This document shows positions 11,715-60,487 of a stretch of 64,000 nucleotides of DNA, in pieces. Numbering within the stretch: the stretch's first letter is position 1; each line of letters begins with the position of its first letter. Origin of the DNA: Polystyrenella longa (GTDB lineage: Bacteria > Planctomycetota > Planctomycetia > Planctomycetales > Planctomycetaceae); assembly GCF_007750395.1 (NCBI RefSeq), contig NZ_CP036281.1, positions 62,001-126,000 on the forward strand, given 5' to 3'. The position numbers were made by a program, and so were the translations under genes. Under the pieces are notes generated by a model. That model searched no databases and had not been told where the DNA came from. It saw only the letters and a list, made by a program, of their open reading frames with translations.

Positions 11715-12671
11715 CTATTGAGCGTTGGCCGCCAGAGCGATGGCACCATAAACGACGACGTCCTCTCCCAGAGCAGCGGGAACAATTTCGTATTGGTTAC
11801 GAAGTTGCGGAAAGACGTATTGGTTGGCGTAACGGCGGACAGGGTCAAGGAAGAGTTCGACTCCCATGAGTGAAACGCCACCGCCGATAACGACGACCTC
11901 AGGGGCGATTAAAGAAACCACCTGAGCGACGGCCCAACCGAGTGCTTTAGTGGCGCGGTCGAGTGCTTCCAGAGCGAGAGGATTTCCTTCGCCAGCGGCG
12001 GCGGCAATCGTTTTGCCGGTGATCTGGCTGGGATCATTACCGGCCCGAAGCAATATTTCTGCACGTGCTTCTCCCATATCATCGAGAATGTTGCCATTCT
12101 CAAGTTGTCCGCGCAGCCAGGTTTCGATTCCTCGTCCACTTGCCATCGATTCTACTGTCTGATGAGCATCGGTGGCTTCCAGTCCCGGGCGTAAATGTCC
12201 AATCTCGGCAATGGCCGGACGATCTGCACCGACGAGTTGCCGGTTCAGGACGAGTCCGCCACCGACTCCTGTTCCAGAAGTGATATAAAACAGATGTTGT
12301 TTCGACTGCCCTGCTCCGAAACAGCATTCGGCAAGAGCAGCGGAATCGCAATCATTCCGCACGACAGCGGGAACGCCCAATGTTTCCTGAGTCCATTCAG
12401 CCAGCGGAAATTGTTCCCAGCCTTCGACTTGATGACTGATGCGGACGATACCAGCGACACCGTCGATGGGTCCGCCGAAGCCATACCCGACCCGTTTGAT
12501 ATGATGTTTCTCGACGAGTGTTTTTCCCGCTTGTTGAATTTGGTTCAGAATTCCCTGGGCGCCCTGACTGGCATCGATGTCGAGCCGGACGAAGTCAATG
12601 AATTCGGCCCGTTCGCCCGTGCCGACTCCCAGTTGCAGTTTCGTTCCACCAATTTCAATTCCGAGATACAT
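11715..12671 (-). CDS. ROK family sugar kinase/glucokinase-like
   Basis: A 318-residue ROK protein, probably an ATP-dependent hexose kinase. The N-terminus MYLGIEIGGTKLQLGVG is the phosphate-1 motif. RNDCDSAALAE contains the catalytic Asp, ITSGTGVGGGLVLN is the phosphate-2 motif, and AEIGHLRPG holds the conserved His that in many ROK kinases is a zinc ligand. The CXCGXXGC zinc motif that normally follows is missing: the segment after HLRPG has no Cys, as in some kinase subgroups. I place the start at ATG 12671; a longer ORF to 12989 would overlap the upstream gene in another frame and has no ROK-like sequence. It is the last gene of the minus-strand run and lies 89 bases after the repair-protein gene. 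The sugar is unknown. Confidence 0.88.
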   Translation of the reverse strand: MYLGIEIGGTKLQLGVGTGERAEFIDFVRLDIDASQGAQGILNQIQQAGKTLVEKHHIKRVGYGFGGPIDGVAGIVRISHQVEGWEQFPLAEWTQETLGVPAVVRNDCDSAALAECCFGAGQSKQHLFYITSGTGVGGGLVLNRQLVGADRPAIAEIGHLRPGLEATDAHQTVESMASGRGIETWLRGQLENGNILDDMGEARAEILLRAGNDPSQITGKTIAAAAGEGNPLALEALDRATKALGWAVAQVVSLIAPEVVVIGGGVSLMGVELFLDPVRRYANQYVFPQLRNQYEIVPAALGEDVVVYGAIALAANAQ

Positions 12672-12760
12672 AATGCTGACTTGTTCATAAGAGTGTGAAG
12701 AAAACGAGAAAGGTTGATGGCCCGACTTAGAGAACCTGAAAGCCGTGAAGAGAAAGCAAA

Positions 12761-13720
12761 CTACTGACGACTTAGTCTGTCGGCCAGAAAAATGGGTTCG
12801 GGAAGTCGATGCTTTTTCTGTTTTCCGGCCCGGTGTGTCCAGTCGACCGCTTCTGCTAATGTGAGTCGATGTCCGACCGAAACGTAATACGGTTTTTGGC
12901 TGCGACGCGATGTAATCGCCATGCCGATGGTCTCGTTCTGGAAGAGGACAGGCCTTTCGGTCTCGTCTCCTTTGGGAACAGAACCACATAACAGCGATTT
13001 GCCAATCCCGATCGTTGGCTTGTTGATCTCCACACCGAGGCAGCTCGCAATGCCCGCCTTACGGGGATGAAGTTGTCCATTACCGTCGACGAAGATCAGG
13101 TCGGGTTCGATATTCTGCCGGACAAGTTCTTCCCATATCGAGAGTAACAGTGGCAATTCCCGAAACGCAAGATACCCGGAAATGTAGGGAAAGGAAATGG
13201 ACGAGCGTTGAATCAGTTCATGCTCCACTTTGAGTGTCCTGGCATTCAGAATCACGCAGGCCGCCTGTCCAATTCCCTTTTTCGGATAGGCGAGGTCGAC
13301 TCCGGCAATGAGTTTGATTGGCCCCGTTAACGGACTTGTTTTGACTGCCCGGCAGATCGATTCCTGGTATTCATGAAGTTCGGTCAGCGGGCTATTGAAC
13401 AGGTCTCCATCGGGTTGCCAGCCTGATTGTTTCAAGTCGACATGGTCTCCTTTGAAGATAACCCCTTCTGCGCGAAGACGAGTTTCTTTTTCTCGTGTCT
13501 CGCCGCTGACATACAGGCCAAGTTCTCCAGTCTGCCGCACCAATCGGTGACAGGGGCACTCGTTGGTATGATCGTGGCGACGGGCGTATTCGCCGATGTA
13601 GCGTGCGGCGGTGATGTTTCCCATCAGGCGGGCGACTTGACCGTACGTCATGACCTTGCCCATGGGGATCTGCCGGAGCAGATGTCGAATCCAAACGGCC
13701 AGGTCAGGGAGTTCTACCAT
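12761..13720 (-). CDS. Fused O6-alkylguanine-DNA alkyltransferase-like / endonuclease V
   Basis: A 319-residue two-domain repair protein. Residues 1 to about 95 match the DNA-binding/active-site domain of alkyltransferases: GKVMTYGQVA (Tyr26), ARYIGEY (Arg40) and ECPCHRLV with Cys57 in the PCHR position. Because Cys is retained, it is not a typical alkyltransferase-like protein, where Trp or Ala replaces it. Residues 115-319 are endonuclease V, which cuts near deoxyinosine: Asp142 in AGVDLAYP, Glu188 in FRELP, Asp212 in IFVDGNG with LHPRKAGIAS, and His284 in VSVGHRL. All metal and catalytic residues are present. A similar fusion is known from the archaeon Ferroplasma acidarmanus. It sits 24 bases after exbD and is probably co-transcribed. 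Confidence 0.92.
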   Translation of the reverse strand: MVELPDLAVWIRHLLRQIPMGKVMTYGQVARLMGNITAARYIGEYARRHDHTNECPCHRLVRQTGELGLYVSGETREKETRLRAEGVIFKGDHVDLKQSGWQPDGDLFNSPLTELHEYQESICRAVKTSPLTGPIKLIAGVDLAYPKKGIGQAACVILNARTLKVEHELIQRSSISFPYISGYLAFRELPLLLSIWEELVRQNIEPDLIFVDGNGQLHPRKAGIASCLGVEINKPTIGIGKSLLCGSVPKGDETERPVLFQNETIGMAITSRRSQKPYYVSVGHRLTLAEAVDWTHRAGKQKKHRLPEPIFLADRLSRQ

Positions 13721-13744: not shown

Positions 13745-14266
13745 TCAGAGTTGGGGGGCTGCGCCTGCGGGTCTTTTGGGCGGGGTGAATTTGATTTTCT
13801 CGACATATCGAACCGGCTGGTTTGTGACGGGATCGATGGCACCGGTACAGGCGGAGACGGCCCGAATGGTGTAGGAGTAATCTAGGTTGTAATCGGCATC
13901 GATCTCGACTTCTGTGTCGGCCGCATTGGCTCCACCTGCCTGGTCTCCTCCGACCGTCTGCAGGATGACTTGATTCAACCGTTTGAAGACATCGTCGCCG
14001 CTCCCCAGATTTCGCTCGCCGAATTGAATGGAGTTGAGTGAGCCATCTTCGTTGGCGATCAACCGGACTTTAATTGCAGGGAGGGCGATTTCAGAGCTTT
14101 GCCTGGGCGGTTGGTTGATCGGCATGTTGATCTGAAACTCCCCTTCCGGCTCAACAATTTTGAGCGTTAGCAGGAAGAAGATCAGCAGCTGAAAGACAAT
14201 GTCGATCATCGGCGCCATTTGAGGCCCCTGCTTCAGCGATTCCTGTTGAGAAGTTCGGATACGCAT
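13745..14266 (-). CDS. ExbD/TolR family protein (second copy)
   Basis: A 173-residue biopolymer-transport protein: a short cytoplasmic N-terminus, one transmembrane helix with the family Asp (MAPMIDIVFQLLIFFLL), and a periplasmic domain. The Asp in PMIDIVFQL is the residue that carries protons in ExbD/TolR/MotB relatives. The C-terminus ends in a Pro/Ala/Lys stretch (PPKRPAGAAP). It is 69 bases downstream of another ExbD and belongs to an ExbB-ExbD-ExbD set that should form a proton-driven inner-membrane motor. No TonB-like gene is visible nearby. Two different ExbD copies may form a mixed complex. Confidence 0.88.
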   Translation of the reverse strand: MRIRTSQQESLKQGPQMAPMIDIVFQLLIFFLLTLKIVEPEGEFQINMPINQPPRQSSEIALPAIKVRLIANEDGSLNSIQFGERNLGSGDDVFKRLNQVILQTVGGDQAGGANAADTEVEIDADYNLDYSYTIRAVSACTGAIDPVTNQPVRYVEKIKFTPPKRPAGAAPQL

Positions 14267-14335: not shown

Positions 14336-14806
14336 TTAATTCTGATCGCCCTGTGTTGCTTTTAATGTGTACTTCTGGAAACCGGCGTCTTGCGCCATCC
14401 GAATGACTTCTTGAATCTGGCCGGTTTCAATTTCACCATCGGCTCGGATTTCGATCGTCACGTCGCCCGCTTCCCGCTTGAGTCCGCGGAGGACACGGGC
14501 TTCTTTTTGTAATAACGGTCCGAACTCCAGAAGTGGTGTTTGTTCGCCCAGATAAAAGACGAGTGGTTCGGAGGTGATGACCCCTTCAAGATTTCGAATG
14601 TATCCGATGTTCAAGACGATGTTGTCTTCTGCGACATCCTCTCGGGGGCGGGCGAGTTGATCGCGAGGGAGTTTGACGCGTTCGTCGACCTGATTCTGTT
14701 CAAAGTTGTTGATCACCATGAAGAAGGCAATCAACTGAAAAACGATGTCGATCATGGGCGTCATGTCGACTTCACGAACAGAGTTTTTTGTCGATTTGAT
14801 CCGCAT
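14336..14806 (-). CDS. ExbD/TolR family protein (first copy)
   Basis: A 156-residue protein with one transmembrane helix near the N-terminus (VDMTPMIDIVFQLIAFFMV), including the conserved Asp, followed by a periplasmic domain of ExbD type (VTIEIRADGEIETGQIQEVIRMAQDAGF). It lies between exbB (60 bases upstream) and the second exbD (69 bases downstream). The two ExbD copies differ clearly outside the helix, so they are not a recent duplication and are likely to have separate roles in the complex. Confidence 0.9.
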   Translation of the reverse strand: MRIKSTKNSVREVDMTPMIDIVFQLIAFFMVINNFEQNQVDERVKLPRDQLARPREDVAEDNIVLNIGYIRNLEGVITSEPLVFYLGEQTPLLEFGPLLQKEARVLRGLKREAGDVTIEIRADGEIETGQIQEVIRMAQDAGFQKYTLKATQGDQN

Positions 14807-20806: not shown

Positions 20807-21856
20807 ATGCGATTTCGAACCCCCGATAAAAAGTCTCCCTGGATGAGTCAGAAGGAACAACTCCGACTGGTTATGCTGTGCGTTGCGCTGGTTTTGGTCG
20901 TACTGGCAATGCAGCGTGCGTCGGAACCGGAGTCCTGGGGCTGGTTGATTCCTTCTGAACAGCCTGAGAATCTGGAGCAGGATTCTGATCAGGTGGTGAT
21001 CACCCTGACAGGCGAAACTGTCCCCGAAGGCTCCGATCCAGCCAACTCGCAAGTCCAACTGACGACCGAACTCCCTCCCCTGTTGACCGGCGACGAACGG
21101 GCGGCGATTGAAGACGATTACCTGGGGCTTAAGAAAAATGAAGAACCGCTGTTCCAGCATGCTGTCCAGAGACTAGCCGAAACGAATCGAGGAGTGCTCC
21201 AGCTGAATGCAGATCGATCTGGGGCCTACCAGGTCTGGATGGCCGAAACAGATGCCTGGCGTGGAAAACTAATTGAGTTCGAAGGGACCGCGAAACGAAT
21301 TATTGCACGAGAAGATCAATCGAATGAAGGTGTAGATCGGCTCTATGATCTATGGGTGGTGACTCCGGGGTCGGGATCAATGCCGTTGCACGTGGTGACG
21401 GCTGGATTACCCAGCGAATGCCCCACGGGCGATGGATTGAATACCCCTTTGAATCTGATTGGCACCCTCTTTAAGCGAGAGGGTTACGCAGCCGAAGGAG
21501 GATTGCGGACGACCTTGTTAATTGCCGCTGCGCCACCGACGTTGGTGGGGGCTGCCTCTACGGTCCGTCCGCCCAAACGGCTCGTACCCCTGATGGGGGC
21601 GATGGCGATCGTACTAAGTCTCTTCATTTTGTATTCGCTGTGGAACACATTTCGGGCCATAACCAAATCAGCGGTGCATCCTTCGCTTCAGTCGTCCGAT
21701 GACCCTGATCCTGATTTTTCACTGATAGAAGCGGAGGACCTCGATCAGGAAAATACGGCTCAGATCGATTTGCAAAATATGGAATCGCAAGAGGTCGAAT
21801 CTAATAGCGTTGAGTTTCCAAACGAAGATAATTCAGAGCAGCAATTGGGGCAGTAA
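20807..21856 (+). CDS. Two-helix membrane protein, unknown function
   Basis: A 349-residue protein with a transmembrane helix at about residues 22-38 (LRLVMLCVALVLVVLAMQ), a large domain of about 220 residues, a second helix near 265-285 (LVPLMGAMAIVLSLFILYSLW), and an acidic cytoplasmic tail rich in Asp, Glu and Gln. The central domain has an OB-like flavour (WRGKLIEFEGTAKRIIAR, LYDLWVVTPG, NLIGTLFKREGY), but this is weak inference. It is followed 39 bases later by the TrkA_C protein, so the two are probably co-transcribed. I do not recognise the family. Confidence 0.65.
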   Translation: MRFRTPDKKSPWMSQKEQLRLVMLCVALVLVVLAMQRASEPESWGWLIPSEQPENLEQDSDQVVITLTGETVPEGSDPANSQVQLTTELPPLLTGDERAAIEDDYLGLKKNEEPLFQHAVQRLAETNRGVLQLNADRSGAYQVWMAETDAWRGKLIEFEGTAKRIIAREDQSNEGVDRLYDLWVVTPGSGSMPLHVVTAGLPSECPTGDGLNTPLNLIGTLFKREGYAAEGGLRTTLLIAAAPPTLVGAASTVRPPKRLVPLMGAMAIVLSLFILYSLWNTFRAITKSAVHPSLQSSDDPDPDFSLIEAEDLDQENTAQIDLQNMESQEVESNSVEFPNEDNSEQQLGQ

Positions 21857-23025: not shown

Positions 23026-25176
23026 ATGAAAAAAAAGGAAGATTTAAAGATAACGTTGATCAGTCTGCATGGGCTGATTCGAGGTCATGAACCTGAGTTG
23101 GGTCGAGATGCTGATACCGGAGGACAAATCAAATACCTGATCGAGCTGGCAAAAGAGCTGGCCGCGCACTCTCATGTACGCGAGGTAGAGTTGTTAACGC
23201 GGCAGATCATCGATCCGCGCGTCTCGGATGACTATGCCCAGTTGGAAGAGCCATTGGCGGACAATGCCCGCATCGTCCGGATCCCCTTTGGGCCAAAACG
23301 GTACGTCAAAAAAGAATCGCTTTGGCCGTACATGGAGCTGTTCATCGATCAGACGCTCCAGCATTTTCGCCGGACGGGATTGCCCGATATTATCCACGGA
23401 CACTATGCCGATGCCGGTGCCGCGGGAGCTCAGTTAGCGCGACTGCTTCACATTCCCTACGTCTTCACTAGCCATTCTCTGGGCCGCGTGAAAAGAGAGC
23501 GTTTGTCCCACAGCAATGCCGACATGGACAAACTCGAACGCAAGTACCACTTCCGAACACGTATCGAGGCGGAAGAGTTTGCTCTGGAAACCGCTTCGAT
23601 GGTCGTGACCAGCACGAATCAGGAAGTGGAACAGCAGTATCAAATGTACGACCATTACCAGCCCGAACGGATGGAAGTGATTCCGCCGGGAGTGGATCTG
23701 ACATCGTTCATGCCGATCGACAAAGACTGGGAAACACCGACTTTCGCTGAGACGTTGAATCGTTTTCTGCGAGAACCGGACAAGCCCATCATTCTGACGG
23801 TGGCACGACCGGATGAACGTAAAAATCTGGAGACGCTGGTCAAGGTATATGGAGAAAGCGAGCAACTACAGGAACTGGCCAACTTGGTTGTCGTGATGGG
23901 GTCGCGAGACGATTTTCGTGAGATGCCTAAAGGGCAGCGAACCGTCATCAAAAACGTGTTCCACCTGATCGACAAGTACGACTTGTACGGCAAAGTTGCT
24001 TATCCCAAGACGCACAAATCCGACGACGTGCCCGAGCTGTATCGACTGGCCGCATTCACACAAGGTGTCTTTATCAATCCGGCGTATACGGAACCATTTG
24101 GCCTGACTTTGCTGGAAGCAGGGGCAACTGGTTTACCCATCGTAGCGACCAACGACGGCGGACCGAGGGACATCATCTCTAACTGTCAGAACGGTTTGTT
24201 GATTGATCCGCATAGTCATGAAGATATTGAGCACGCGCTGCTACGGGTACTGACCGAGAAAGATCAATGGAAAACCTGGTCTGAGAATGGTATCAACGGA
24301 ACGCGGAAATATTATTCCTGGGCGAACCATGCGAACCGCTACCTCCGTGACTTGGATGACATCCTGGAACATTCTCCACCGCCGGTTCTCAAAAACACGA
24401 CAGTCAAACGGCGACTGCCTGATTTCGATCGATTGATCATCACCGATCTGGATAACACGCTGACTGGCGATGACGAGTCGTTGCAGCAATTTATCGAGAT
24501 GATGAAGGAAAACGATCACATCGGATTCGGGATCGCCACGGGACGCCGCTTGGACAGTGCCATGGAGTTGATCAGCGAACTTGGGCTTCCCCAGCCCGAC
24601 CTGATCGACACCGACTGCGGTACAAAGTTGCACTACGGTGAAAATCTGACCGTCGACAGCAGCTGGCAGAAATCGATCGGGTACGCCTGGAACGCGGAAG
24701 GGATCCGAAAAGTGATGGCTGAACTCCCCGGGATCAATCTTCAGGAAGAGGATTGTCAGTCTGAGTACAAAATCAGTTATGAACTCGACACCCGGACCTG
24801 TCCTAAGATAACAGTCATCAAAAAAACGCTACGCGAGGCCGGATTGCGTGCTAAGGTTGTCTCGTCCCTTGGTATGTATCTGGATGTGATCCCCGTGCGG
24901 GGAGGAAGCGATCTCTCCATGCGACATGTGCTCTGGAAATGGGGTTTTTCCCCGGAAAGAGTATTGGTCTCCGGAGATTCAGGTAACGATGCCGGCATGC
25001 TGCTCGGCAGAACACTCGGAGTGGTCGTGGGCAACCACAGTCGCGAACTCCGTCGGTTACGCAACAGACCTCGTATCTACTTCTCGGAAGCGTCACACGC
25101 CGCGGGAATTCTTGAGGGTATCGAGTATTACAACTTTCTGAATAACATCATTATCCCCAACGATAAAACCGAATGA
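23026..25176 (+). CDS. Sucrose-phosphate synthase with C-terminal phosphatase-like domain
   Basis: A 716-residue two-part enzyme. Residues 1 to about 460 are a GT4 glycosyltransferase of sucrose-phosphate synthase type: [54 protein letters not shown], and the donor-site motif [17 protein letters not shown]. It would make sucrose 6-phosphate from UDP- or ADP-glucose and fructose 6-phosphate. From about residue 465 there is a HAD domain like sucrose-phosphate phosphatase: [14 protein letters not shown] with Asp474 and Asp476, [11 protein letters not shown], and [12 protein letters not shown]. Catalytic Asp residues are retained, so it may do both steps. Sucrose is a likely compatible solute or carbon store. 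It overlaps the next gene. Confidence 0.93.
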
Positions 25177-27140
25177 GCACCACGCAGGATGACATCAACT
25201 TTAAGGCTGATCTAACCCTCAAACGGCTGCAATCATCGCTCACCGAAGTCTGGCAACGAAATCAAGTCGACGAAGTCAAACAGCATGAGTTTGAACTTCG
25301 TTTGAATGAATATTGGCGTCCACTGTTCCGGATCCTGTATCACCTTTACAGCCATCGATACGACTTCTTCTATCACCTCGAGCAGATTGTGACAACCGCC
25401 GCCCAGGGTTGGGCCGACCGCGCAGAACCTCTCTGTAAACTCGACCGGAAACGGGTCAACGACCCGAACTGGTTTCAATCAGAGCGGATTTGTGGTGGTG
25501 CGCTGTATGTGGACCTCTTCGGTGAAAATCTGAATCAGCTCCGTAAGCATGTTGGCTACTTTAAAGATCTCGGCCTGACCTATTTGCACCTGATGCCGCT
25601 CTTCGCCGTTAGGCCCGGGAACAGCGACGGTGGGTACGCGATCAGCAACTACCGCTCAGTGGATCCACGTCTGGGAACGATTGACGATTTGCGATTACTG
25701 GTGGACGACTTGCGCGAAGCGGGCATTTCGCTGGTGCTCGACTTCGTCTTCAACCATACATCTGACGATCATGAATGGTCGCGACTGGCGCAGTCCGGTA
25801 ACCGCGAGTACCAGGAGTTCTATTATATCTTTCCGGATCGAACTGAACCGGATAAGTACGAGCATACGTTGCGTGAAATCTTCCCCACGGTTCGCCGCGG
25901 GAACTTCACCTGGCACGACGGGATGGAGCAATGGGTCTGGACTTCGTTTAACAGCTTTCAATGGGATCTCAACTATTCCAACCCCGCTGTCTTCCGAGCG
26001 ATGCTGGAAGAGATGTTATTCATTACTAACACGGGTGTTGATATCCTGCGTTTGGACGCGGTCGCTTTCATCTGGAAGAAGATGGGCACGACCTGCGAGA
26101 ACCAACCCGAAGCTCACATGTTAATTCAAGCGTTCAACCTGCTCTCACGGATAGCGACCCCCAGTTTGCTCTTTAAGTCGGAAGCCATCGTGCATCCGGA
26201 TGAAGTGGTCAAATACATTGGTGAAGAAGAATGCCAGATTTCCTATAACCCAACGCTGATGGCGCTGCTGTGGGAATCGCTGGCCACCCGCAACGTCAAG
26301 CTGCTGGTGCAGTCACTGAGTCATCGATATCGGCTCCCTCCGAATACGGCTTGGGTGAACTATCTTCGTTGTCATGATGACATTGGTTGGACTTTCGACG
26401 ATGCCGATGCGGCGATGATCGGTATCAATGCCTACGATCATCGGCAGTTCTTGAACTCCTTTTACACGGGACAGTTCGATGGATCTTTTGCTCGAGGAGT
26501 TCCCTTTCAGGAAAACCAGCAGACGGGCGATATGCGTATCTCCGGAACAATGGCTTCTCTGGCCGGACTGGAACAGGCAATCGAACAGGAAGATGAAGAT
26601 AAGAAAGAGCTGGCGATTCGACGTATGCTTCTGCTGCACGGTGTCTCACTCAGCATTGGCGGAATCCCCCTGCTCTACCTGGGCGAAGAATGGGGGATGC
26701 TTAACGATTACGACTTCGTGAAAGACCCCGTGAAGGCAGGGGACAGTCGTTGGATTCATCGCCCCAAAATGAAATGGGAATACCTCGACGAGCTGGATGA
26801 TCACATCGACTCGGGGAGTGGTTCTATTCGAAAACGAATTTTCCGTTCAACACAAAAACTGATCGCCCTGCGTAAATCTCATCCCGCGCTTGCGGGACAG
26901 GAAATGGATCTGGTCCGCACCGGAAATGAACATATTCTGGGCTACATTCGCTTCCACGACGGCAACCGACTGATCGTGCTGGCGAACTTCTCGGAAATTC
27001 CACAGACGGTAGATGGCAACATCATCCGGACAGCAGGCCTGGGGCACTTCTTTGAAGACATGATTACCAACCGAGAATATGCAACTTCCGAGCATTTGCA
27101 GATCGAGCCTTACCAAATTCTCTGGCTCGACCGTGTCTAA
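25173..27140 (+). CDS. Amylosucrase (GH13 sucrose-using glucosyltransferase)
   Basis: A 655-residue GH13 enzyme that fits amylosucrase: an N-terminal helical domain of about 90 residues, a (beta/alpha)8 barrel, and a C-terminal beta domain. The catalytic triad is Asp295 in ILRLDAVAF, Glu337 in FKSEAIVHP and Asp402 in RCHDDIGW, each nine residues beyond the Neisseria polysaccharea positions. [15 protein letters not shown] is the first conserved barrel motif. It would transfer glucose from sucrose to an alpha-1,4-glucan and release fructose. Its ATG overlaps the synthase stop as ATGA, so the two are coupled. A sucrose phosphorylase or hydrolase is the main alternative; the length and helical N-domain favour amylosucrase. 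Confidence 0.9.
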
Positions 27141-27177: not shown

Positions 27178-30100
27178 TTAACTCAACAAGTCGTCCGATT
27201 CCTCTTTCCAGTTGGCAAACACAGGGTCGGCTATTGGAGAGGCGACGGGAATGCCGATGGAATCGGCCTTTTTGACAGAGAAATTGTCGAACCAGCTGAA
27301 TGCGTTCGCGGCGGCGACACCTACAGTCTCAATTTCCCGGGGATCGACATCGACCGAAGTTGAAACGACTTCTTCACCATCGACGGATAAGGTCGCAAAA
27401 CCGAATGTATAGTCGATGTGCAGTGTCAGATCGTAAAACTGGTTGAAGTTAATACTACGCCCCGAATTATCCCAGTCTTCCATCGCCAGGACATTATTCC
27501 AAGTGCCGTTGAAGTGTCCAATGACCCATTGGTTCTGGCCCGTATAGAACCCGGCGTACTTGAAATCGTTTTGACTCTTATAATCGAAGATTAAGAATCC
27601 ATCGTGCCATCCATTCGAAATCTGGTTTGAGCGAATACTGGCCGAAATTTCGATTGCTTCGGAGCCATCCAAATCAACTGGAACGTAAGCGGTAGCCTGG
27701 CCGCCTCCGTTAGAGGTATTAATGCGTAAGAGCGGGTCGTCTGTGGGAGCGACGACTTTCCAGGGAAGTGGTTTGTTGTAGTAAAACTTCTGTGCTGCTC
27801 CGTCATCAAAAGTTTCTGTAAAGGGAAGAGAAACTGCTTTCCCCGTTTCGACAGTTACATCGACTTCAAGGTTGTCAAAACGAGTGATCGCGTTTTGCGC
27901 AGCGACTCCTACGGTCCCATTACCGACACCGTTTTCAAAGCTGCCGCTTGCGACGATGATTCCGTTGGCCCGCAGCGTGACTTCATTCCCGTCAACGCTG
28001 ATGTGTAAATTGTAAGGAATGTTGACACTGATTTCTTGTCCGATGTCGTCCCAGTCATTTTGTGCAACACGATCTCCCCAGTTGCCCTGATAATGACCGA
28101 TGACCCACTGGTTTTGCCCCGTAAACATCCCTGCATATTTAAAATCGGTTGGACTCTGGTAATCGAAGACGAGGAATCCATCCAACCAGCGACCAGGCCC
28201 GCCCATCGAGGTTACGAGTGCTGACATTTCATAAGAATTGGGCATGGGCCATTCGAAGTCGATATAGCCGATACCAAGTCCCTGATTGTCGGAGGCATCG
28301 ATTTGAAGGTAGCGTTGATCTTCGTAAGTATCGACGGTCCATAAATGGGGATTTGTGAACAGGAATCGGTCGGGCGTCTCACTTGCGAAATCCTGATAAT
28401 AAGGAAGGCTCGTTGGTGCCCCTTCGTCGATTCTCTCTCCCACGAATAGGTTATCAAATCTGGTGACAGCGTTAAAAGAAGCGATGCCGACTTGTCTATT
28501 ATTGATCTGGGAATCAAAGGTGACCTGCGTGAGGAACTCTCCATTCACCGAAAGAAAGACGGTAGCACCTTCACTTCGAAGATGGATTGTGTAGGGAACA
28601 TCAGCATCAATTGTTCGACCTATATCGTCCCAGTCCACTTGGGCAGCCCGGTTTCCCCAATGGCCCTGATAGTGTCCAATGATCCATTGATTCTGTCCGC
28701 CTAAAAAACCGGCGTATTTGAAATCGGTTTCACTTTGGTAATCAAAAATGAGAAAACCGTCTAACCAGCTATTCAGACCACCCACCGAAGTAACCTCTGC
28801 GGAAATCTCGAATATTTCTGGGAGCGGATCTGATGAATTCCAGACGGCGGTACTTAATCCGGTACCGCCTGCGTTGCTGAACATGAGCTGTTTATTGGAA
28901 GAGGCTTCTACTGTGGATGTAGATCCGGGGTTGTTAATAATCAGATTGGCGGGAAGACCAAAATCGAAATCGGCCTGATACAATTTGGAGATCCCGAGGG
29001 AGTCCACGCTTTCAGGAGTGACCTTCCATAAGTACATAAAAGGAGACTGCTGACTCTGCTCATTCGCTGAAATAATGGAAGTGCCAGGGCCAATTTGAGC
29101 ATCCGCCTTCCCCTTAAAGCTTCCTGACATATAAATGGAATCATCATCAGCGACTACAAGATCCAAAGCAGAGTTCGGGCTGTAATTATACTGGGTTTTA
29201 AAAGTCCCATCTAAGGTTGCTGCCCAAATGACATTGACATTGGTGTCCAGAGAGAAGATCGCAGAGGAATAATTATCCATATCTAAAATATAGGTGTCTG
29301 GGCCAGGATCAATATCCGATGTACCAAACAGCGAAGCTCCAATGATGAGATTCTCCTGTTGATCAAAATCGATACTCGCTATAAGAGGGCCTCCACTACT
29401 ACCCTCCATTGAACCGGCCCAGACCAGATCGCCATTCGTGTCGAAACGAGCAATGAACGTCTCAGACTTAGTGAGAGAGGCTTCAAGAATATTCGTGTTT
29501 ACAGTGGGGTCGAGATCAACATTTCCTCGAAACCTGCCAGCGACGAAAATATTCCCAGCGGAATCTATGTTAATAGAATTGGCAGAATCTCTTTGGACAT
29601 CTCCGAATGTATGGCCCCATTGTAACTCTCCTGTTGAATTCAATTTCGCTAAAAACACATCGTCGAGACCATTACTCGTTCGAATATCACTGTCGTTACC
29701 GTATTCGAAATCGATCGTCCCTTTGAAGTCTCCGAGGACGACAGCATTTCCATTCTCGTCAAGTGACAATCGCACAGAGCTATTTCCATCTGAGATGGCG
29801 AACTGCTTGACCCATTCCCGGGTTCCGGTATTGTCCATTTTGAGAACGAAGCCATCGACACCTCCTGAGGTGCTTTCATAAATAATCTCGTCCTCACCTG
29901 TCCCTGATTTCAATTCACCTGCAAACCGTCCGCTGATATACATGTTTCCATCGAAGTCGATTTTCATCTCGTCGGCCACCGCCGTAGAGTATTCCTCCTG
30001 AACCAGGTACGTGTTGATTACATTTCCGTCGCCATCTATCTTCAAAATATTCCTGAGATTCGAGCTTTGAAAGCAATAAACGTTATCATCACCATCTATG

Positions 30101-30519
30101 GCTAAGGCCATAATATGTCCCGCAGGGTTGTTAGATGTGGAATAGCTACGTACCCATTCAAAACCACCCTCAGGTCCTACTTTTACTAAGGCAAAAGAAC
30201 CTGCAGATTGAGCGGAATCAAGTTCCACGACGCCGGGACCGGGATCAAAGTCGACTTTGCCAACGTACCTGACGATGGAGTATGAATTGCCTGCCGAATC
30301 GATCGCAATTTCCTGACCCTCTGACAGGTAGGGAACGTTGACATCCTGTGGTCCGGCAGTGTATGCGAACCCTGTAGATTAAAGCAGCAGCCGACTTTCC
30401 AGACTGTCGAATTGTCGCAGTGCGTTAGCCCTAGTTTCTATTCGGTTTTCCGAGAGTCGACGAAGTGAAGAGTTTGACCGAATATAGGAAGACGAATTCA
30501 ACCAGGAAAATAAACGCAT
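27178..30519 (-). pseudogene. Giant secreted beta-propeller/LamG-like protein interrupted by one in-frame stop
   Basis: From ATG 30519 (GGAG about nine bases upstream) the frame runs 46 codons, ending in the export-type motif QFDSLESRLLL. It then meets TAA at 30379-30381 and continues in the same frame without further stops to 27178, giving 1067 more codons. Without the stop the product would be about 1113 residues: N-terminal segment, SBBP-type propeller repeats (DNVYCF, NGNAVVLGDFKGTIDFE) to about residue 500, three LamG/concanavalin-like repeats of about 190 residues (WLDGFLIFDY, KYAGFLGGQNQWIIGHYQG), and the tail PVFANWKEESDDLLS. The paralogue at 30826-35589 reads LEDRTLLS at the same point, so a single Ser-to-stop change is the simplest reading. 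A downstream GTG (30228) could start a form lacking the export segment. Confidence 0.82.
28202..28248. repeat. 47-bp segment nearly identical to 31841-31887
   Basis: This stretch, in the middle LamG-like repeat of the downstream giant gene, matches 31841-31887 in the upstream giant gene with only two mismatches. The surrounding sequence is much more diverged. It encodes the MPNSYEMSA..TSMGGP segment and suggests recent gene conversion or duplication between the paralogues. Confidence 0.85.
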
Positions 30520-56536: not shown

Positions 56537-58255
56537 TTATGTATTGAGCAATTCCTGCTGGGCTGGCTTTCTTCCCAATGTTTCCTGTCCGAGTAACAAC
56601 CGTCGCATCCGAACTTCGGTTGCGGGTTCGATGTCTTCGGGGACAGCCTGACCTGTTGTCAGGTAACTGACAGGCAGAGAAACTTTTCGAGCCAGATTAA
56701 GCATGGGGCCGAGGCCTTCGGTTTCATCCAGCTTCGTCAGAATCATGGAAGTGGTTCCGGCGGTGGCGAATTCATTGGCCATTGACTCCAGACTCCGAAG
56801 ACTGGCCGTCAGATTCAGAACCAGATGAACTTCATCTGCTCTGGCCTCATGAAGAAGGGCTTTCAATTCTTGGATTTTGGGCTCATCTTTGGGACTGCGA
56901 CCTCCTGTATCAATAAGAACAAGGTCCAGGCCCTGCAATTCATCGAGTGCCTGTCGCATCTCTTTCGCGTCGGTGACGACTTTGACAGGTAGATCCATGA
57001 TTTCCGCGTAGGTTCGGAGTTGTTCGACAGCCGCGATTCGATAGGTATCGACGGTCACCAGACCGATTTTTAATCCCTGACGTAATTTGAAGTTGGCCGC
57101 TAGTTTGGCAATCGTGGTCGTTTTACCAACACCGGTCGCACCGACGAGGGCGACCACTTTCCGGCGACCGCGTGTCACTTGGATTGGTCCACCACATTGG
57201 AATTGTTTTTCGAGCAATCCGTCCAGTACGGCGTCAGTTTGACCTTCGACTTGCAGTTCCTGCGGACGGCATTGTTTTTTAATGTCGAAGACTAGTTCGC
57301 GGGCTACGTCTTCTGCCACGTCGACGTCGATCAGTCGGGTGTATAGATTGAACAAACTGTTGGGCAGCTCATGCATCGCCAGCATTGGATTCTGCCGACC
57401 CATATTCAGTAACATGCGTTCGATGTTAGCCAGACGACCGGCGAAGTCTTCATCAACATAAGATTTGTTAGTGGAGCGTGGTGCCGATTCCGTAGAGACT
57501 GGTCTGGGTTCGAATCGAGAGAAAGTCGGGGGCAGGGCGACTGAAGCCGGTTCGCCAGCAGAGTCGTTCGTAAGAGAACGGGCGGCGATGGATTGAGGAC
57601 GATCGGTCCGTTTAGCTGGTGCTTGCGGTACTGGCTTGGATTCCGCGGCTGCAATCTGGCTCGCAACTGAAGGGGCTTGTGGCTTTTGGACAGTTTGTGT
57701 CGCAGCAATGGAATCGCTGGCGACTGATTTTGATGCGGGAGTTGATAGTTTTTCGTGTGTCGAACCGATTTGTCGCTTGGCTGAAGTTAACGGTCTGTTC
57801 AGCATGCTTTCTCGGCTTGGTCTCCCTGCGGAAGTGGGTTCGGGCCGGGCAGGCTTCGCATTCAATTGACTCGGTCCTCGCGAGGGTGTGCTGAGTTCGA
57901 GCTCATCCTCTTCTTTTCCTATCTGATCGAGCAACTGCATGGCCATCGATTTGGTGTTTTGAACCGGGCGTTTAGCAGGGCGACGAGTTACAAGCTCATC
58001 GTCTTGCGTGTCCTCCATTGATGTGGCGTCCCCCTGATATCGACTGGCAATCGATTCTGATAGACGGGATTTCGAGGGGCTTTCTTCGATGCTGACCGTG
58101 ATCTCCACTTCTTGTTTGGCTTTTTTCCAGGGAAGGTAAGATTTGTCGGCAATCTGTTTAGTATGCAGAATTACGGCCTCGGGACCGACTTCTGATCGGA
58201 CCAGGTCGAGAGCATCTTGCATACTGGCGGCTCGAAAGGTTTTGATCTGCTGCAT
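56537..58255 (-). CDS. flhF: Flagellar SRP-type GTPase FlhF
   Basis: A 572-residue protein. The N-terminal domain begins MQQIKTFRAASMQDALDLVR with VGPEAVILHTK. About residues 70-290 are a long low-complexity linker (Pro, Ser, Ala, Arg). The C-terminal NG domain has ALVGATGVGKTTTIAKLAA, VTVDTYRIAAVEQL, VLIDTGGRSPKDE and TKLDETEGLG. FlhF marks the site of flagellar assembly. It lies between flhA and flhG. Confidence 0.95.
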   Translation of the reverse strand: MQQIKTFRAASMQDALDLVRSEVGPEAVILHTKQIADKSYLPWKKAKQEVEITVSIEESPSKSRLSESIASRYQGDATSMEDTQDDELVTRRPAKRPVQNTKSMAMQLLDQIGKEEDELELSTPSRGPSQLNAKPARPEPTSAGRPSRESMLNRPLTSAKRQIGSTHEKLSTPASKSVASDSIAATQTVQKPQAPSVASQIAAAESKPVPQAPAKRTDRPQSIAARSLTNDSAGEPASVALPPTFSRFEPRPVSTESAPRSTNKSYVDEDFAGRLANIERMLLNMGRQNPMLAMHELPNSLFNLYTRLIDVDVAEDVARELVFDIKKQCRPQELQVEGQTDAVLDGLLEKQFQCGGPIQVTRGRRKVVALVGATGVGKTTTIAKLAANFKLRQGLKIGLVTVDTYRIAAVEQLRTYAEIMDLPVKVVTDAKEMRQALDELQGLDLVLIDTGGRSPKDEPKIQELKALLHEARADEVHLVLNLTASLRSLESMANEFATAGTTSMILTKLDETEGLGPMLNLARKVSLPVSYLTTGQAVPEDIEPATEVRMRRLLLGQETLGRKPAQQELLNT

Positions 58256-58354
58256 CGTCGGTTACGCTTTCATTGAGCCAAAAAGTAAAGTTGAGCCAGT
58301 AAGTAAATTTGAATGTAAGAAGATTGTCTGCATGTTGTTTTTTATGGTTTCGGT

Positions 58355-60487
58355 TCAAGCATGAGGTGCTGATCCTACTCCGGCCATTTGCGGTTGAGGT
58401 CCGGCCGTGACTTGTGAAATCGCTTCCACGTCGGTGTCGCGAGTAATTTCGTTTAAGCTTAGGACGGCCAGTTTGGGCAAACTTCCTTGTGTGATCTGTT
58501 TCAAACCGGCTCGTACCTGAGGACTGCAAATCAGTACCGGAGGATGTCCCAGCGTTACCAGTTTCTGCAGTTCTTCGGCGATTGCTGCAGTAACCTGTTC
58601 GGAAACTTGAGGCGACAGTTTGACCATCAGTCCCCGTTCGCTGTAATCAAATCCTGCCATCAGAATGTCTTCGAGTGCCGGATCGAGTGTGAGTACATGA
58701 ATTGTTCGTTTACGGTCGCGGTATTGCAGGCAGATCGTACGAGCGAGTGAATGTCGGACGTACTCTGTTAAAATACCAAGGTCTTTGGTGCGGTCGGCGT
58801 AGTTGCTGAGGGTTTCCAGAATCGTTTCCAAATCCCGAATGGGGACTTGCTCGTGCAGCAGATTGTTGAGGATTTGATGAACATGGGCTGTCTTCATCAT
58901 GTCGGGGATTAACTCGTCGACAATTTTGGGAGACGTCTGCCGCAGGTTGTCCAGTAGCTCATGAACCTGTTGCCGTGTCAGTAATTCGTGCGCGTGCTCT
59001 TTAGCCACTTCGGTCAGATGGGTGATGATCACCGCCGAAGGCTCGACCACGTTGTAACCGGACATCTCCGCCCGATCTTTGTGAGCCATTTCAATCCATT
59101 TCGCAGGACGACCGAACGCAGGTTCTTTAGTATCGATGCCGGGGATTTCTCCGCCGGTTGCGCCAGTATCGATTGCGAGCAGGGCTTCCGGGTAGACTTC
59201 ACCCCAGGCGACAGGAATGTCGCGAATTTTGATCTGGTACTGGCGTTGATCCAAGCGGATATTATCCCGGATTCGCACTTTGGGCAGGATGATGCCCAAC
59301 TCATGAGCGACTTTGTGCCGGATACGAGTGACCCGGTCCAGAATGTCGCCTCCGCTGTTCGGATCGGCCAGTTTGATTAAACCAAAGCCAAGTTCGAGTT
59401 GGAGTGGATCGACCGTCAGGTTGTCTTCGGGTTTAGGTTCCGGTCGCGCTTGATCGACCTGTTGAGTCTCTTTTTGTTTTTCATTGACGGCCCGCAGTGC
59501 TGCTTTCTGTCTGGTCATCATTATTCCGATGATCAGGCAGACGACGGATAGGCTCATCAATGGAATTGGGGGAAGACCCGTGAACGACAGGCTGAGCAAA
59601 AAAGCACTCGAAAGAAACAACGCTTCCGGGTGTCCCACCATTTGTTGAATGACGTCGCGAGGCAGATTGCTCTCGGTGGAAGTACGGGTGACGATTAAAC
59701 CGGCAGCAAGTGAAATCAGGAACGCGGGAACCTGTGTAACCAGCCCGTCCCCAATCGTTAAGTTGGTGAAAATCTGGGCGGCACTACTGAAGTCCATCCC
59801 GTTTTCCATCATCCCGATGTAGAGACCACCGAGAATGTTAATCACGGTAATCACGATACTGGCGATGGAATCCCCGCGGACGAATTTACTGGCACCGTCC
59901 ATGGCTCCATAAAAGTCGGCCTGGTGGGTGACTTCTTCACGTCGCTTTTTAGCCTGTTCGGCGTCGATTAATCCGGCATTCAGGTCAGCATCGATCGCCA
60001 TTTGCTTACCCGGCATTCCGTCGAGGGCAAAACGAGCGGCAACTTCACTGATACGGGTAGCACCTTTGGTAATTACCAGGAACTGAATTGCGACCAGGAT
60101 GACAAACAGAATCAGCCCGATGACAATATTATCACCCGCGACAAACGCACCAAAGGCTTGAATCACTCCGCCCGCGGCTTCTGTTCCGCTGGAGGCACCG
60201 TTCATCAGAATTAATCGTGTCGACGCGACGTTTAGTACGAGGCGAGCGAGTGTTGAACCCAGCAGGATGGCAGGAAAGACTGAGAATTCCAGTGGGCGCG
60301 AGACGTAAACCGTCGTCATCAGAATCAGGACGGCGATCGTGACGTTGCAGGCCAACAGCAGGTCGAGGACCAGCGGCGGCAGCGGCGCAATAATCACCAG
60401 CACTGCAGTGATAATCAACACCGGAAATATGATCGATTGTGCGCGCAGAAGAAGTCCGCGCAGTCCACCGGGGTATTCCGGGGGCAT
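58355..60487 (-). CDS. flhA: Flagellar export apparatus protein FlhA
   Basis: A 710-residue FHIPEP-family protein of the flagellar type III export gate. Eight N-terminal helices (about residues 20-330), with the signature RFALDGMPGKQMAIDADLNAG, then a cytoplasmic domain of about 350 residues (GWGEVYPEALL-like segment, TRQQVHELLDNLRQ). Length is close to other FlhA proteins. It is the first gene of the minus-strand flagellar run; the rest of the flagellar genes lie outside the window. Confidence 0.96.
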   Translation of the reverse strand: MPPEYPGGLRGLLLRAQSIIFPVLIITAVLVIIAPLPPLVLDLLLACNVTIAVLILMTTVYVSRPLEFSVFPAILLGSTLARLVLNVASTRLILMNGASSGTEAAGGVIQAFGAFVAGDNIVIGLILFVILVAIQFLVITKGATRISEVAARFALDGMPGKQMAIDADLNAGLIDAEQAKKRREEVTHQADFYGAMDGASKFVRGDSIASIVITVINILGGLYIGMMENGMDFSSAAQIFTNLTIGDGLVTQVPAFLISLAAGLIVTRTSTESNLPRDVIQQMVGHPEALFLSSAFLLSLSFTGLPPIPLMSLSVVCLIIGIMMTRQKAALRAVNEKQKETQQVDQARPEPKPEDNLTVDPLQLELGFGLIKLADPNSGGDILDRVTRIRHKVAHELGIILPKVRIRDNIRLDQRQYQIKIRDIPVAWGEVYPEALLAIDTGATGGEIPGIDTKEPAFGRPAKWIEMAHKDRAEMSGYNVVEPSAVIITHLTEVAKEHAHELLTRQQVHELLDNLRQTSPKIVDELIPDMMKTAHVHQILNNLLHEQVPIRDLETILETLSNYADRTKDLGILTEYVRHSLARTICLQYRDRKRTIHVLTLDPALEDILMAGFDYSERGLMVKLSPQVSEQVTAAIAEELQKLVTLGHPPVLICSPQVRAGLKQITQGSLPKLAVLSLNEITRDTDVEAISQVTAGPQPQMAGVGSAPHA

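Follow-up and report, generated by a model that had tools for sequence, protein, structure and literature searches.

A planctomycete fusion of an AGT/ATL-fold domain to endonuclease V, with a candidate metal-binding His/Cys cluster around its putative alkyl acceptor

The window analyzed here, a stretch of 64,000 nucleotides of the Polystyrenella longa genome, contains a gene that a preliminary description read as an alkyltransferase-like domain fused to endonuclease V (EndoV), a combination for which it named a single archaeal precedent. The locus thus raises the questions of whether the fusion is a real gene, what its two halves are likely to do, and whether its presence in a planctomycete reflects transfer or convergence. 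The archaeal protein is AGTendoV of Ferroplasma acidarmanus, reportedly described by Kanugula et al. (2005, PNAS 102:3617). The available portions of four sources confirm this precedent as an AGT-EndoV fusion (PMC10779285, PMC3489907, PMC7690668, PMC4357722), and two of them state that the protein transfers alkyl groups and cleaves DNA containing uracil, hypoxanthine, or xanthine (PMC10779285, PMC4357722). In the literature available in part, archaeal AGT-EndoV and ATL-EndoV fusions receive brief mentions.

The fusion is encoded by a single open reading frame on the minus strand, with its ATG at 13720 and its stop codon at 12763-12761; the plus-strand frame from 12761 contains six stops. The gene and its two domains are located as follows.

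12761..13720, minus strand: gene for the AGT/ATL-fold plus endonuclease V fusion, 319 amino acids, a single open reading frame
13412..13714, minus strand: AGT/ATL-fold domain, residues 3-103, with an ATL-like C-terminal extension and no N-terminal AGT domain, assigned by Pfam and fold match
12764..13393, minus strand: endonuclease V domain, residues 110-319, assigned by Pfam and fold match

Both Pfam domains lie in this one frame and score above their curated cut-offs, DNA_binding_1 at residues 13-87 (E 3.9e-20) and Endonuclease_5 at residues 127-315 (E 8.3e-55), which bears out the proposed fusion of an AGT-like domain to EndoV. The residues singled out earlier (C57, D142, E188, D212, and H284) are correct, and the N-terminal AGT domain is indeed missing. 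The host genome is a single contig of 6,125,480 bases, in the whole of which the fusion gene is the sole Endonuclease_5 match. Pfam detects one further DNA_binding_1 match there, in a 195-amino acid open frame; this second AGT, whose match is confined to the C-terminal DNA-binding domain, has an ordinary PCHR context and Asn at the hinge.

The AlphaFold2 model, which is metal-free and was computed from the window protein and 27 relatives, is confident for the whole protein (mean pLDDT 94.9, pTM 0.91). Its AGT-fold half matched S. pombe Atl1 (3gx4; Z 13.4, rmsd 2.2, 100 of 108 residues aligned) and the human AGT C-terminal domain (1t38; Z 11.6, rmsd 2.4, 86 aligned), while the EndoV half matched the enzymes of T. 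maritima (2w35; Z 31.6, rmsd 1.5 Å, 210 aligned) and E. coli (4xpu; Z 31.0, rmsd 1.6 Å). As modeled, the first half is an ATL in size and shape, yet it has a Cys at its active site. Like S. pombe Atl1 and the V. parahaemolyticus ATL, it comprises the 100-residue fold including the C-terminal extension, has no N-terminal domain, and lacks the Asn hinge, which is absent from ATLs according to the accessible text of PMC10779285. It differs from them in carrying Cys instead of Trp, in a His/Cys cluster, and in the fusion to EndoV. An AGT C-terminal-type domain placed directly before EndoV is the arrangement of the AGT-EndoV family, and the window protein has it. With Ferroplasma AGTendoV, as that protein is described, it shares an AGT active-site domain that is fused to EndoV without the N-terminal domain.

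Counts across the fusion family refer to 117 proteins, obtained from 128 by removal of near-duplicates after fragments had been taken out (L070, L073, L073b, L074, and L130 were left out beforehand as fragments or unfused). D142, E188, D212, and K241 are invariant in 117/117, and position 284 is His in 83 of the 117. By Pfam match, fold, catalytic Asp/Glu/Asp, and conserved Lys, the second half of the window protein is an endonuclease V, with the same fold and catalytic residues as the T. maritima and E. coli enzymes. It is unlike them in the fused module in front and in its wedge, which reads PYIS where the available part of PMC3489907 gives PYIP.

The central position of the first half is Cys57.

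13550..13552, minus strand: Cys57 codon, putative alkyl acceptor and/or metal ligand, assigned by alignment

C57, H58, E85, Y26, and R40 align to human AGT C145, H146, E172, Y114, and R128, the roles of which are described in PMC10779285 (seen in part). The window protein therefore has the Cys, its His/Glu partners, the Tyr, and the Arg finger of human AGT/MGMT and C-Ada, but it differs from AGTs in lacking the N-terminal domain and in carrying His49 in place of the hinge Asn137. Neither does it follow the ATL pattern, in which the active-site Cys is replaced, usually by Trp. The Cys alone proves nothing, because according to the available portion of PMC10779285 a Cys placed in E. coli ATL gives no activity. 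Unlike in AGTs, the acceptor is not conserved across the fusion family: 74 of the 117 proteins have Cys and 43 another residue (V 14, A 9, S 8, W 7, T 3, L 1, R 1). Because 43 fusions have lost it, alkyl transfer is not a function shared by all, and the AGT-fold module must retain some role that survives Cys loss, presumably DNA or lesion binding. These alignments indicate that the nuclease is under strict constraint across the fusions, while alkyl transfer is not.

The active site also varies between lineages. In Thermoplasmatota fusions, Cys and the hinge Asn are each present in 29 of 31; their motifs are mostly PCYK or PCFK (L208-L235, L143, L144, L149, L152, and L166), and the activating His is Tyr or Phe in 23 of the 31 despite the kept Cys. 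One large Bipolaricaulota group of fusions has LP(V/A/L/S)HR at the active site.

The account given earlier overlooked that Cys57 is surrounded by a cluster of His and Cys residues.

13544..13576, minus strand: cluster H49-x-H51-x3-C55-x-C57-H58-R59, identified by ungapped alignment to human AGT and by co-occurrence

The ungapped alignment places H49, H51, C55, and C57 at human AGT Asn137 (the hinge), Val139, Ile143, and Cys145. Residue 137 is given as the Asn hinge in the available text of a review (PMC10814553), which also states that Cys145 alkylation disturbs Asn137 by steric clash; because of this clash, positions 137 and 145 must lie close together. The pattern H-x-H-x3-C-x-C-H-R is common to planctomycete Cys-bearing fusions. 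Its co-occurrence with the acceptor was counted over 73 planctomycete-type sequences (72 plus L261, with the duplicates L314, L315, L297, and L310 left out), 39 of which bear Cys and 34 do not. We found H49 in 37/39 Cys-bearing versus 1/34 Cys-less sequences, His or Cys at position 51 in 36/39 versus 6/34, and C55 in 38/39 versus 2/34. At least two of the three were present in 37/39 versus 0/34. One sequence, L007, has Cys instead of H51, likewise a metal-type ligand. The exceptions are L027, which has Cys57 without any of the trio, and L131, which has it with C55 only; the frame-split L073, left out of these counts, has Cys and H49 with Q at 51 and L at 55. Three Thermogutta-type fusions carry long inserts between the two motif halves, and in these the motif is entire in L141 and partial in L131 and L136. 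Among the best 80 of 313 relatives in a scan of named genomes, 15 of the 29 fused loci matched the strict cluster and none of the 51 unfused loci had it; nor was it found in the 31 Thermoplasmatota fusions compared.

On a tree built without the motif, Cys57 changes five times and the trio seven times. This leaves five independent pairs for Cys57, two of them on well supported branches, with which a sign test cannot reach 0.05; the co-loss of Cys and cluster, at about five evolutionary changes, is statistically unsecured. A shared role of the four residues, of any kind and not metal binding alone, would fit the co-loss. Because of the residue types at the cluster positions, we infer that the cluster may be a metal (zinc) site that holds, and perhaps activates, Cys57. 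It is chemically plausible for a metal to sit on the acceptor or close to it, since in human AGT a distant zinc site lowers the Cys145 pKa and Cys38 of the Ada N-terminal domain is a zinc-bound methyl acceptor (both from the available part of PMC10814553). If Cys57 is zinc-bound, the likeness to the Ada domain would lie in a metal-activated thiolate. This is an analogy and not a membership, as the Ada N-terminal domain is another domain, with a four-Cys site, and acts on a phosphotriester.

Together, we favor an explanation, to which we give even chances as a whole, in which the window protein is an AGT-EndoV family member with a lesion-binding module, a live EndoV, a His/Cys metal site, and a transfer-competent Cys57. 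The AGT-fold module would scan the minor groove and flip out an O6-alkylguanine-type base by means of its HTH, Tyr26, and Arg40. The EndoV module would be an active nuclease that depends on metal and nicks DNA at deaminated bases such as inosine, and it might also act where the AGT-fold module has bound. In the planctomycete branch, His49, His51, and Cys55 would have taken the place of the AGT Asn hinge and, together with Cys57, would form a metal site, most likely for zinc, that holds the active-site loop, while Cys57 with His58 and Glu85 would still be able to accept an alkyl group. Coupled in this way, the fusion would link alkylation repair to deamination repair, as the preliminary description proposed. 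The protein is probably a working one; the separate AGT in the host genome counts against the explanation.

A doubtful but serious alternative is a sensor that does not transfer alkyl groups. Here, the metal site would be structural and Cys57 a mere ligand, and ATL-like recognition of O6-alkylguanine would deliver EndoV or repair partners. The 43 fusions that lack Cys while their EndoV residues are invariant agree with such a sensor, as do the fold match, which spans an ATL end to end including the C-terminal extension, and the missing Asn hinge, a trait of ATLs (PMC10779285, in part). Further, Pro56 of the canonical PCHR is present in just 20 of 35 Cys-bearing proteins and Tyr26 in 29 of 35, and this relaxation speaks against tight constraint on transfer. 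The partners of the acceptor behave differently, as in the first planctomycete set H58 was kept in 35/35 Cys-bearing versus 17/24 Cys-less proteins and E/D85 in 35/35 versus 21/24; their completeness alongside Cys favors retained transfer. Descent from W-type ATLs, which fold, length, and C-terminal extension had suggested, was rejected: a clade uniting the fused planctomycete domains and the W-type ATLs received a p-AU of 0.013, in a test that used 108 columns only and a tree with many weak forks. The likeness to ATLs is therefore not one of descent.

It is unlikely, in our assessment, that the protein is a plain bifunctional AGT-EndoV like that of Ferroplasma, with a metal-free cluster whose residues pack the loop or form a redox C55-C57 pair and are kept as a habit of the lineage. 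In its favor, the archaeal enzyme of the same architecture is reported to have both activities (available parts of PMC10779285 and PMC4357722), and the coupling of Cys and cluster rests on those roughly five independent changes. However, the three extra residues are all of metal-ligand types, flank the Cys, and are lost together with it, and in one protein a Cys stands in for one of the His residues. Moreover, the Thermoplasmatota fusions compared keep the hinge Asn (29/31) and have no such cluster.

The fusion is far more widespread than the preliminary description supposed. In the window's own family, a fused frame occurs in 39 of 170 genomes, host included, a count that takes in G005, with a degenerate alkyltransferase half, and G004, which is cut at a contig end, and leaves out G075, where the gene is split over two frames, and G043, which has an EndoV without the domain. 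In the G075 locus (L073, contig C79) it is the EndoV half that is split between two frames, indicating a pseudogene or a sequencing error. EndoV matches were present in 176 of 397 genomes of a class-wide sample and in 133 of 392 of a phylum-wide sample. Single EndoVs are also common in the window's class: the 30 best-scoring class-wide EndoV loci (L267-L296) have no AGT-fold domain. A BLAST search with the window's own domain (E 1e-3), which would miss a very divergent AGT-fold domain, found none in 48 EndoV loci outside the class. Of 19 further class loci, picked for long frames, all but one (L311) were fusions; four of these 18 were genes already in the set, and the 14 new ones brought in families other than f1, f2, and f3.

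The 29 fused loci among the best 80 of 313 relatives include some labeled Thermoplasmata, Methanomassiliicoccaceae, Acetothermia, and Bipolaricaulota. EndoV matches occurred in 126 of 292 Thermoplasmatota genomes (the phylum of L149) and in 60 of 100 Bipolaricaulota genomes (the phylum of L142); 26 of 30 EndoV loci in the former and 27 of 30 in the latter were fused, both sets having been taken from the top of the score ranking and not at random. The labels Planctomycetia, Thermoplasmatota, and Bipolaricaulota are themselves inferred from named relatives (L133, L142, L143, L146, and L149) together with the class and phylum groups; L133, from Thalassoglobus neptunius, has the same sequence as L021 from the window's family. 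Thus, the idea of a rarity confined to one archaeon and one planctomycete does not hold. In one scan of viral contigs, three loci had an AGT-fold domain and none was fused to EndoV. The label Neomarinimicrobiota on one fusion (L150) was not used as evidence, as the genome concerned, G539, is placed together with G535 in one phylum group. One contig of a 4.1 Mb genome in the Bipolaricaulota group (L261/L314; G890, contig C30) carries a fusion that has the His/Cys cluster of the planctomycete proteins. It sits among planctomycete sequences in the trees and is either a transfer or a mis-assigned contig. Several genomes (G024, G029-G031, G033, G092, G093, and others) contain short frames, mostly of about 170-200 amino acids, whose Endonuclease_5 matches are weak (E about 1e-8 to 1e-12); these are not full EndoVs and perhaps represent a distant EndoV-fold family.

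That two genes were joined through a frame or assembly error has a negligible probability, because nothing at the window gene favors it (the one frame-split case being the relative L073) and the single-contig genome, the same fusion in many independent assemblies from several phyla, and the confident two-domain model all contradict it. The window gene is real and conserved, and the fusion family to which it belongs is known but under-described.

Phylogenies of both halves bear on the question of transfer or convergence. The EndoV tree was built from 70 of the 117 fusions together with 35 of the 55 single EndoVs, and in the AGT-fold tree these 70 fused rows were combined with 45 unfused AGT/ATL rows over 108 columns; both are quick trees with many weak forks, in which the root and the direction of transfer are not fixed. 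In the EndoV tree, one side of a branch with a support of 99 consists of the planctomycete and Bipolaricaulota fusions. Placing all fused rows in one clade gave a lnL 1.77 higher for the EndoV half (p-AU 0.514) and 18.23 higher for the AGT-fold half (p-AU 0.836), so that a single fused clade was not rejected for either, which does not prove it. Convergence is therefore not required. Read most simply, the trees would reflect a single ancestral event that fused a Cys-type domain to EndoV; the fusion would then have spread from phylum to phylum and repeatedly lost its Cys, in parallel to, but separately from, classical ATLs.

The genes around the fusion lie on the same strand.

13745..14266, minus strand: ExbD/TolR-like gene upstream, 24 bases from the fusion gene, a neighbor within the genus only; the Pfam analysis covered the next gene, 14336-14806
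11715..12674, minus strand: ROK-family gene downstream, a neighbor within the genus only

The ExbB-ExbD-ExbD / ROK order is kept in both congeners (L005 and L006), but the remaining 67 of the 70 loci compared (11 of them unfused, all with short flanks) showed none of these neighbors. A functional operon with the ExbB-ExbD-ExbD or ROK genes was rejected on account of the missing neighbors outside the genus, and we claim no functional link. The fusion gene has a GC content of 0.536 against 0.507 for the window, and its GC3 of 0.581 lies inside the 0.506-0.638 of its neighbors; neither measure gives a sign of recent transfer into the genome, a possibility that we discarded.

Elsewhere in the window, 27178..30228 (minus strand, 1016 amino acids) and 20807..21856 (plus strand, 349 amino acids) have no Pfam match at E 1e-5. 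Overlapping genes at 23026..27140 (plus strand), in which a glycosyltransferase joined to a sucrose-phosphatase domain is followed by an alpha-amylase-family enzyme, look like a sucrose pathway unit. At 56537..60487 (minus strand), an FHIPEP (FlhA-type) gene adjoins an SRP54-type GTPase gene, which we take to be FlhF-like by position; the two are likely flagellar export genes.

A fusion cited only from archaea, in literature available in part, recurs in Planctomycetia and Bipolaricaulota. The accessible portions of PMC10779285, PMC3489907, PMC10814553, PMC7216122, PMC13212565, PMC7690668, and PMC4357722 mention neither planctomycete fusions nor the His/Cys cluster. A bolder proposal, which we consider rather unlikely, is a new kind of O6-alkylguanine alkyltransferase in which a His2Cys2 zinc site has taken over from the Asn hinge and counts the acceptor Cys57 among its ligands; domains without this metal site would have lost the Cys as well and would persist as lesion sensors that steer EndoV. 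If true, it would be a zinc-thiolate nucleophile like that of the Ada N-terminal domain, invented independently inside the AGT fold. The invariant nuclease and the repeated loss of the acceptor provide natural pairs for asking what service the AGT-fold module renders to EndoV, and such pairs bear on the published speculation that EndoV makes the incision for an ATL-type sensor (PMC10779285, in the part available). If the cluster binds zinc, it would constitute a second, independent metal-held cysteine in alkylation repair.
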